Assembly: GCF_900115785.1 (NCBI RefSeq)
Contig: NZ_FOYS01000001.1
Location: 248,001 to 312,000 of the forward strand
DNA length: 64,000 nucleotides
Reading direction: 5' to 3'
Source of the DNA: Halogeometricum limi
Lineage (GTDB): Archaea; Halobacteriota; Halobacteria; Halobacteriales; Haloferacaceae
Positions 48,148 through 58,186 of this stretch are shown piece by piece. Position numbers and translations under genes: made by a program. The notes beneath the pieces are model-generated. The model was not told where the DNA came from, made no database searches, and worked only from the letters and a program-made list of their open reading frames with translations. How positions within the stretch are numbered: position 1 is the first letter of the stretch; the number at the start of each line of letters is the position of its first letter.

Positions 48148-49065
48148 TCACTTCGTCGGGTAGTCGGTGGCGAACACGTCCTCGACGAGGGGTTCGTCGT
48201 CGTCGCCGTCCTCGTCGTCGGCATCGTCGGACCCCGGACTCACGCTCCCCGTCTGGTAGCCGTGGAGGTCCAGCGTCACGTGGTCGAACCCGAGGTCGGT
48301 GAGTCGGTCGCGGACGGCGTCGGCGAACTCGGGGTCCAGCGCCGTCTCCAACTCCTCGCTCGCGACTTCGATGCGGGCGAGGCCGTCGTGGTCGCGGACG
48401 CGGAACTGCGAGAAGCCCCACTGGCGGACGACGCGTTCGGCCTTCTCGACGCGCGTCAGTCGCTCTTCGGTCACTTCGATGCCCGTCGGGATGCGCGAGG
48501 AGAGACACGCCATCGACGGTTTGTCGGCCACCGAGAGGCCGTAGTCGTCGGCGATGGCCCTGACCTCGTCTTTCGAGACGCCGTGACTGAGAAGCGGCGA
48601 GAGTACCTCTAACTCCTCGACGGCGCGGAGCCCGGGTCGGTGGCCCTCGCCGGGGTCGGAGGCGTTCGTCCCGTCGCAGACCGTCTCGATGCCCATCTCG
48701 CGGGCGGCGTCGTACATCCGGCCGAGGCGCATCGTCCGGCAGTGGTAGCACCGGTCGCCGTCGTTCGTGACGAAGTCGGGGTTGTCGAGTTCGGAGAACT
48801 CCACCACCTCGTGACGAATCCCTATCTCGTCGGCGACGCGGCGGGCCTCGTCGAGTTCTTCGGCCGGGAGCGTTTCCGACTTGGCGGTGCAGGCGACGGC
48901 GTCGTCGCCGAGTGCCTCGTGAGCGAGTGCGGCGACGACGGCGGAGTCGACGCCGCCGGAGAACGCGACGAGCACCCCGTCTCGCGCTTCGAGCGACGTG
49001 CGCGCCGCCGCGGCCTTCTCGGCGGGCGTCGTGTCAGAGTCGTCTGGCGTGTCCGCGTCGAGCAT
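48148..49065 (-). CDS. larE: LarE-type sulfur transferase for nickel-pincer cofactor synthesis
   Basis: A 305-residue PP-loop ATPase. The SGGVDS loop is at 36-41, and DGDRCYHCR (Cys106, Cys109) and KPSMACLSSR (Cys187) are family segments; the third holds a conserved Cys that in the family gives up its sulfur or binds a cluster. LarE adds sulfur to the LarB product; LarC then inserts nickel. LarB is encoded 9 kb downstream, and larC is not in the window. The last about 30 residues are an acidic tail. The ATG gives MLDADTPDDSD. Confidence 0.88.
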   Translation of the reverse strand: MLDADTPDDSDTTPAEKAAAARTSLEARDGVLVAFSGGVDSAVVAALAHEALGDDAVACTAKSETLPAEELDEARRVADEIGIRHEVVEFSELDNPDFVTNDGDRCYHCRTMRLGRMYDAAREMGIETVCDGTNASDPGEGHRPGLRAVEELEVLSPLLSHGVSKDEVRAIADDYGLSVADKPSMACLSSRIPTGIEVTEERLTRVEKAERVVRQWGFSQFRVRDHDGLARIEVASEELETALDPEFADAVRDRLTDLGFDHVTLDLHGYQTGSVSPGSDDADDEDGDDDEPLVEDVFATDYPTK

Positions 49066-56616: not shown

Positions 56617-56784
56617 TTACAGGTCGCGGGGCTGGACCGTCTTCCGGTCGTTCTCTTCCGCACGGCGGGCGGCATCTTCGAGCAGTTCCTTCACTTCCTC
56701 GTCGAGCGCGTCGTAGAAGTCAGAAGCGACGTTCTTGTCGTTGAGCGCTTCCTTGACGGCTGCCTTGACAATAAGGTCTGCCAT
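56617..56784 (-). CDS. Histone-fold small protein (DUF1931-like, 55 aa)
   Basis: A 55-residue acidic protein starting MADLIVKAAVKEAL and containing VASDFYDALDEEV, ending KTVQPRDL. The helix-loop-helix spacing and the terminal 'R.TVQPRDL' resemble half of a histone fold; the family is recalled as DUF1931. The gene shows a Shine-Dalgarno-like GGAGG close before the ATG and an ACTTAATAAG box about 27 nt upstream. Whether it binds DNA is not known. Confidence 0.75.
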   Translation of the reverse strand: MADLIVKAAVKEALNDKNVASDFYDALDEEVKELLEDAARRAEENDRKTVQPRDL

Positions 56785-56879
56785 ACAACCCTCCTTTCTA
56801 AGGCCTACTTAATAAGATTTCCCAAATCAGCCGCCTCTCAGCCCCTACTCGTAGTATATGGCCTTTCGGAGGGGACGGA

Positions 56880-56963
56880 TTTATATACCGGGAGGGCGCA
56901 TAGGGGCAGACGCTTTGAACGAGGGTCTGGAGGGGTCGAATCCTTCGTTTCCCTGATTTTTCG
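56880..56963 (+). ncRNA. Candidate small RNA or structured larB leader
   Basis: A strong TATA box TTTATATACC (56880-56889) would start transcription near 56908-56912. The following bases form two mutually exclusive hairpins sharing 56941-56949: AACGAGG (56918-56924) with CCTTCGTT, one bulge, or GGAGGG (56929-56934) with TCCTTC and a 6-nt loop. GATTTTT follows at 56955. No protein is encoded. It could end as a short RNA or continue into larB. Confidence 0.4.
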
Positions 56964-57027
56964 TTCGAGTCGACCGTCGTCGGCCCGAAACGATAGGTAG
57001 GTGGGGAACGGGCGCGAACGCACGCTC

Positions 57028-57798
57028 ATGCGAGATGTTCTAGAGGACGTCGCGGCAGGCGAACTCACTCCGGAAGAGGCCGAAGTGCGTCTCACGGGGT
57101 ACACGACGACGGACGCGGGCCGCTTTGACGCGGCGAGAGAGTCGCGACGCGGCGTCCCCGAGGCGATTCTGGCGGACGGAAAGACTCCCGACGAGACAGC
57201 GACAATCGCCGTCGCCGCCGTCCGTTCGACGGGAAGAGCGATTCTGACGCGGGCGGCGGAGTCACACGTGGACGCCGTCGTCGACGCCCTCGACGAGAAC
57301 GCGACGTTCGACAGAGACGAACGGGCGCGGACGCTCGTGGTACACGCGCCGGAGTTCGACTCGCCGACGCTCGACGCGACAGTCACCATCGCCACCGGCG
57401 GCACATCCGACGCCGAAGCGGCGGGCGAAGCGGCGGTCATCTTGCGGGAGATGGGTGCGACGGTGACGCGCGTCGAAGACGTGGGCGTCGCCCACCTCGG
57501 GCGCGTCCTCGACAACCTGGAGACGCTCCGCGAGGCGGACGTGGCAGTCGTCGCCGCGGGTCGCGAGGGTGCGCTCCCGACGGTGGTGGCCGGCCTCGTC
57601 GACACCCCCGTCATCGGGCTTCCCGTCTCGACGGGGTACGGCCACGGCGGCGAGGGCGACGCGGCCCTCATGGGGATGCTCCAGTCCTGTACCGTCCTCT
57701 CCGTCGTCAACGTCGACGCCGGATTCGTCGCGGGGGCGCAGGCCGGACTCGTCGCCCGCGCGGTCCACGACGCACGAACCGCCACCGAGGAGTCGTGA
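57028..57798 (+). CDS. larB: LarB: nickel-pincer cofactor synthesis carboxylase
   Basis: A 256-residue protein related to PurE. The N-terminal about 60 residues hold a helix pair (MRDVLEDVAAGELTPEEAE). The C-terminal domain has ATGGTSDAEAAGEA near 125, a DVGVAHLGRVL stretch and GYGHGGEGDAALMGML near 210, which match LarB. It carboxylates and hydrolyses nicotinic acid adenine dinucleotide for the nickel-pincer cofactor. LarE is also in the window; LarC and LarA are not. The ATG at 57028 gives the family start; an in-frame GTG nine codons upstream is unlikely. Confidence 0.9.
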   Translation: MRDVLEDVAAGELTPEEAEVRLTGYTTTDAGRFDAARESRRGVPEAILADGKTPDETATIAVAAVRSTGRAILTRAAESHVDAVVDALDENATFDRDERARTLVVHAPEFDSPTLDATVTIATGGTSDAEAAGEAAVILREMGATVTRVEDVGVAHLGRVLDNLETLREADVAVVAAGREGALPTVVAGLVDTPVIGLPVSTGYGHGGEGDAALMGMLQSCTVLSVVNVDAGFVAGAQAGLVARAVHDARTATEES

Positions 57799-57985: not shown

Positions 57986-58135
57986 ATGCCAACTTGCGAC
58001 CACTGCGGGTCGCACGTGTCTGAACGCTTCGCGCGCGTGTTCACGGACGGTGAAGGACGGCTTCTGGCCTGTCCGAACTGTTCGGCGAACGCGGGTATCG
58101 CGGAGGTCGCACGGCAACGAACCCGCACTGCATGA
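57986..58135 (+). CDS. Micro zinc-binding protein (49 aa, DUF7563-like)
   Basis: A 49-residue protein with CDHCGSHVSERFARVF near its start and CPNCSANAGIAEVAR later, forming two CxxC pairs. The whole layout resembles a haloarchaeal family recalled as DUF7563. CCTAAGTG about 60 nt upstream may be its promoter box, which would give a leader of about 35 nt. Function is unknown. A perfect 7-bp stem-loop follows downstream. Confidence 0.7.
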   Translation: MPTCDHCGSHVSERFARVFTDGEGRLLACPNCSANAGIAEVARQRTRTA

Positions 58136-58186
58136 CCACTGAAGCGGACGAAAGACCACCACGCGAAGCCGTACCCCTGTCAACGT

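Follow-up and report, generated by a model that had tools for sequence, protein, structure and literature searches.

The region between a small histone-fold gene and larB looks like a two-way control region of an ordinary type, with the histone gene on the minus strand and the nickel-cofactor gene larB on the plus strand. In the reading that we prefer, to which we give a probability of about 0.6, it comprises divergent promoters, larB is served by a weak leaderless promoter of its own (P2), and RNA from a strong distal promoter (P1) is ended in this species by the sequence TTTTTC. The region is built from known kinds of element. All of them lie within the 64-kb stretch of DNA that was analysed, referred to here as the window, and their positions are given in Table 1.

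Table 1. Features of the histone/larB region (positions in the window)
Feature	Position	Strand	Basis or remark
Histone-fold gene, 55 aa	56617-56784	minus	PF09123 (DUF1931), 23.2 bits, cut-off 21.8; larB divergent
Histone core promoter, TATA CTTATTAAG and A-rich BRE	56808-56828	minus	matrix 7.23, predicted start 56786
Degraded counterpart of palindrome CATATC-N5-GATATG	56844-56860		no strand; comparison with genus sisters
P1, BRE/TATA, ACGGA TTTATATA	56875-56887	plus	single occurrence, matrix score, relatives
Predicted P1 transcription start	56910 (+/- 1-2)	plus	matrix
9-bp helix	56917-56925 with 56942-56950	plus	one of two mutually exclusive foldings; not conserved
7-bp helix	56930-56936 with 56940-56946	plus	competing folding; not conserved
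TTTTTC, candidate terminator of T5C type	56957-56962	plus	intergenic T run, then C
P2, CGATAGGTAGGTG (family form CGACANNTACGWG)	56991-57003	plus	conserved, 30 nt before larB ATG
larB	57028-57798, ATG 57028	plus	NF033503 (LarB), 225.7 bits, cut-off 175

The histone gene and larB

Copies of the histone-fold protein that are 96% identical adjoin larB in Haloferax loci, and Haloferax species also provide the best LarB matches among the named genomes. From similarity and gene order we infer that the histone-fold gene is the counterpart of HVO_0196 of Haloferax volcanii and larB that of HVO_0197; the H. volcanii locus has the same divergent gene pair. HVO_0196 is described as a face-to-face histone and as one of the most highly expressed genes (PMC11390915), and HVO_0197 appears under the gene name LarB in PMC8305020. 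In three of four datasets, the top 2% of expressed genes are reported to include the chromosomal face-to-face histones of both H. volcanii and Halobacterium salinarum (PMC11390915). Our literature search on HVO_0196 and HVO_0197 returned gene names and no start sites, and a search on the promoters of face-to-face histones returned nothing. LarB was detected in 135 of 148 genomes of the family.

A larE gene (TIGR00268, 292.7 bits) is present at 48241-49017 on the minus strand, about 8 kb from larB, and larC is on another contig. Downstream of larB there is a CxxC-rich reading frame of 49 codons (57987-58136, plus strand) with no Pfam hit; its position matches that of HVO_0197_A, a zinc-finger micro-protein studied in H. 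volcanii.

Two strong promoters pointing away from each other

For scoring core promoters, a BRE/TATA matrix was derived from 235 upstream regions in 464 kb of the same genome; the larB region is itself part of this training set. The best predicted start for P1 scored 7.3, a value reached by 0.05% of shuffled sites (P 0.0005) and by 6.8% of genes, and P1 has a BRE and a TATA box at the spacing and composition characteristic of this genome. The sequence TTTATATA at 56880 occurs once in the window when both strands are searched; TTTATATACC occupies 56880-56889. This TATA box had been described in the first-pass annotation as one of the strongest in the window, and both its uniqueness and its matrix score bear this out. 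The same annotation had put the nearest plus-strand start codon about 115 nt from the transcription start. The distance from the predicted start to the larB ATG is 118 nt; an in-frame GTG at 57001 lies closer.

The score of the histone promoter is equalled or exceeded by 7.2% of genes, and the histone gene would be nearly leaderless, given its best predicted start. The TATA box of this promoter was also seen in the intergenic regions of relatives. The two TATA boxes are about 70 bp apart, and the promoters point away from each other.

Between the two promoters, four other members of the genus (L201-L204, from genomes G003, G001, G002 and G004) carry the palindrome CATATC-N5-GATATG intact. Each of these four genomes has a single exact copy, located at the histone/larB spot. 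No exact copy was found in the genome studied here, which has the degraded counterpart listed in Table 1.

P1 in related genomes

The comparison covered 72 distinct regions between the histone gene and larB; duplicates entered as a single region, and both protein matches had to begin at residue 1. The loci came from the best 30 matches among the 135 genomes with a larB match, plus 40 further regions, and since they are spread unevenly over genera the 72 regions are not independent. A P1-like box matching at 7 or more of 8 positions was identified in 65 regions, leaving 7 larB-adjacent regions without a box of this quality. The distance from this box to the histone start is 90-118 bp (SD 8.5) and that to larB is 55-246 bp (SD 58). 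In 28 long regions aligned on P1, the profile picks out the box, the BRE and, 20 bp downstream, an A; beyond these, most of the transcribed part carries little information. To judge from these sequences, P1 is an old promoter.

Thirty histone loci were also read, from 30 genomes selected for an absent, diverged or distant larB or included for comparison. In 21 of these loci larB is not adjacent. Inspection by eye of the 21 gave a P1-like box near 95 bp in five (genera g4 and g6), a box about 128 bp out and ahead of another gene in five (genus g24), and no P1-like box in 11 (g3, g16, G016 and the second copy in G098). This mixed pattern indicates that P1 is neither strictly linked to larB nor always retained with the histone gene. 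The g24 box (L158, L159, L162, L167 and L178) is of the TTTATATA type and is separated from the histone start by about 128 bp, larB being gone; the gene behind it reads, by eye, like a GIY-YIG nuclease.

In intergenic regions of the Haloferax type, position 90, which corresponds to P1, has GACG[AG]ATTT (12 of 12 tested), and a P2 of the CGACGGGTATGAG type stands before larB, as here. These regions differ in having a second TATA about 20 bp beyond the P1 box, in their length (183-186 bp as compared with 243 bp here) and in the absence of the T run.

A conserved element before the larB start codon

An element resembling CGACANNTACGWG stands in a fixed register to the larB start codon across the 72 regions, at a mean of 30.0 nt before the ATG with an SD of 2.0, the best match always being taken. 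By hand count it matches at 8 or more of 10 positions in 66 of the 72, a figure obtained on the same sequences from which the motif was drawn. In the profile, a BRE-like segment similar to AACGACA extends from about -40 to -33, and single-base signals follow for T at -30, A at -29, A at -10 and T at -1. Taken with the spacing, this profile gives P2 the layout of a leaderless promoter. In H. volcanii, leaderless transcripts are reported to account for 72% of the coding ones, and the haloarchaeal basal promoter consensus is given as CGAAA / TTWT / WW (PMC4983044). Like haloarchaeal leaderless basal promoters, P2 has a BRE-like signal and a signal at the TATA position, both in register with the ATG, but its box is G/C-rich (TAGGTG, TACGAG) where T/A is usual in those promoters.

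As a core promoter P2 scored -0.78 in its own genome, a value that 16% of shuffled sites reach; averaged over the 72 regions it falls in the top 14% of positions. As the score in its own genome is not above background, we refer to P2 as promoter-like and not as a typical promoter. It may need an activator, or it may be the site of a regulator. The earlier view that larB is unlike its leaderless neighbours was half right: a conserved element does stand in leaderless register before larB, and its core-promoter score is weak.

The pattern of P2 followed by an ATG was found at 29 places in 28 of 60 genomes, many of them at larB and the others coding-like by eye. In Salinarchaeum (L039) larB lies away from the histone gene, and CACTTAGC was seen by eye at the same place before its ATG. 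No P2-like motif was seen by eye before larC or larE.

Folding and conservation of the leader

Two hairpins sharing a segment had been proposed for the transcript from P1. Both helices can be drawn and they are mutually exclusive, but shuffled sequence gives about as much: mutually exclusive helices of at least 7 bp arose in 329 of 1000 dinucleotide shuffles, and as many as observed in 83 of 1000. The folding energies of the two short leaders that we tried corresponded to z = -0.60 and 0.07 relative to shuffles. For relatives, the comparison used leaders of at least 90 nt with a recognised P1 box (n = 28); their mean z was -0.40, and they are no more folded than shuffles. One of these leaders, L067 (z -4.74), contains an inverted repeat as an insertion. 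This repeat (positions 1401-1482, genome G134) has arms of 37 nt that are 81% complementary and 8 nt apart; inserted between P2 and the larB ATG, it looks like a small mobile element.

Two blocks persist in the alignment of leaders from the genus, GCATA ahead of the start and GTCGGCCC...GA ahead of P2, and the sequence between them is gapped and divergent. The first helix of the first-pass annotation lies wholly within an alignment gap in all four other genus members, the 9-bp helix lies largely within a gap in all four, and 17 of the 28 pairs of the 7-bp helix are retained across them. The expectation that the named stems would be conserved or would covary in relatives therefore failed, as they are broken or missing in these four genomes. 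Many relatives that retain larB have a much shortened leader.

A consensus hairpin computed by RNAalifold for five genus leaders differs from the hairpins proposed earlier and includes some two-sided changes. Its paired cells were reached by 7 of 500 shuffles and its pairs changed on both sides by 16 of 500; the hairpin was fitted to the same five rows, and its covariation term of +2.8 is unfavourable. We give this putative hairpin little weight.

Rfam searches gave no match at gathering scores in the window, nor, with E allowed up to 1, in 56780-57060, and a known RNA family was rejected on this basis. A tRNA was searched for and rejected, and no bacterial-type promoter or hairpin terminator was found. 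Nor is the sequence a repeated RNA: a search of its own genome at E 0.01 returned one match, the locus itself.

The T run between P1 and larB

The T run pointed out in the first-pass annotation is real. It is intergenic and followed by C, and TTTTTC is the T5C type among the T-stretch terminators tested in H. volcanii (PMC7237163). In the reporter experiment described there, a T5C insert halted 95% of transcripts, and the terminator works without a hairpin (PMC7237163). By analogy, TTTTTC may well function as a terminator here with no hairpins needed. It differs from the intergenic T-stretch terminators of H. volcanii in standing between a promoter and a gene and in being found in a single species among the leaders examined, T5 being present in 1 of 62 leaders, that of the species studied here.

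In 464 kb of this genome T5 has a density of 0.725 per kb within 120 nt after gene ends, as compared with 0.080 per kb in sense coding sequence, and of 0.513 per kb before gene starts. Because T5 is dense before gene starts, a T5 run in a 118-nt leader is an event of about 6%, and TTTTTC may be due to chance. On the other side, given the 95% termination in the reporter, P1 may plausibly yield a short RNA with its 3' end at the T run, in this species alone. Of the earlier suggestion of an attenuator, or else a small RNA with its terminator, the second half is thus retained in this limited form; the attenuator is not, since the stems are not conserved.

Interpretation of the region

In terms of predicted transcripts, starts and stops, the ordinary divergent region that we favour would work as follows. 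P1 and the histone promoter, both strong, would fire divergently from their common region of about 70 bp. P1 would give rise to a plus-strand transcript running from about 56910 toward larB, and P2, the weak element, to a leaderless larB transcript beginning at the ATG; the DNA between P1 and P2 would be free to change. In relatives that lack the T run, P1 would add an unstructured leader of variable length to larB. In the present species most P1 transcripts would stop at TTTTTC, about 53 nt from their start, and larB would depend mainly on P2 and on read-through.

The roles of the two plus-strand elements could be reversed, with P1 as the real larB promoter, the 118 nt as an ordinary unstructured 5' UTR, and P2 as the binding site of a larB regulator. 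In core-promoter score P1 far exceeds P2, the P2 sequence is unusually specific for a TATA box, its combination with an ATG is found mostly at larB, and by eye P1 is gone in nine loci of genera g3 and g16 in which larB is not adjacent. Against such a reversal are the constant spacing of P2 to the ATG with signals at -10 and -1 like those of a leaderless start, the seven larB-adjacent regions in which P1 is not recognisable at the 7/8 level, and the position of TTTTTC between P1 and larB in this species; we regard it as somewhat unlikely. A further possibility, which we consider improbable, is that the two strong promoters form a fixed module of the face-to-face histone gene; the distance of P1 would then be preserved to the benefit of that gene, and the P1 RNA would be a by-product, cut off from larB in this species by a new TTTTTC. 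Such a module might act through TBP/TFB occupancy or through transcription itself, with the palindrome as an operator at its centre.

The remaining readings assign a function to the P1 transcript itself. A separate small RNA, about 53 nt long (56910-56962) and functional in its own right, would be consistent with the strong promoter, the T5C end and the absence of an ATG start codon in between. Neither its sequence nor its stems are retained in the four genus sisters, however, a second genome copy and an Rfam match were not found in the searches described above, and the T run is confined to one leader. Such an RNA is quite unlikely, a young and species-specific one being conceivable. Nickel/cobalt riboswitches are a described RNA family, and the leader had been suggested to be an attenuator or riboswitch-like element sensing nickel or the nickel-pincer cofactor. 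This idea draws on the layout of promoter, two exclusive helices, T run and cofactor gene, and the few two-sided changes in the different hairpin drawn by RNAalifold may be counted in its favour. It is contradicted by the broken or absent stems in the sisters, by leaders that fold no better than shuffles and are lost or shortened in many relatives, by the negative Rfam searches, by a T5C terminator that requires no hairpin, and by the unfavourable covariation of a hairpin derived from the rows on which it was judged. A literature search combining nickel-pincer with riboswitch found nothing related. We consider a nickel- or cofactor-responsive leader very improbable.

When a cofactor gene is preceded by a strong box, a T run and two hairpins, a switch suggests itself, yet relatives keep the promoter elements alone. 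The comparison points to a compact control region that is widely conserved and belongs to a highly expressed chromatin protein of haloarchaea, with a palindrome that is unique in each of four sister genomes.
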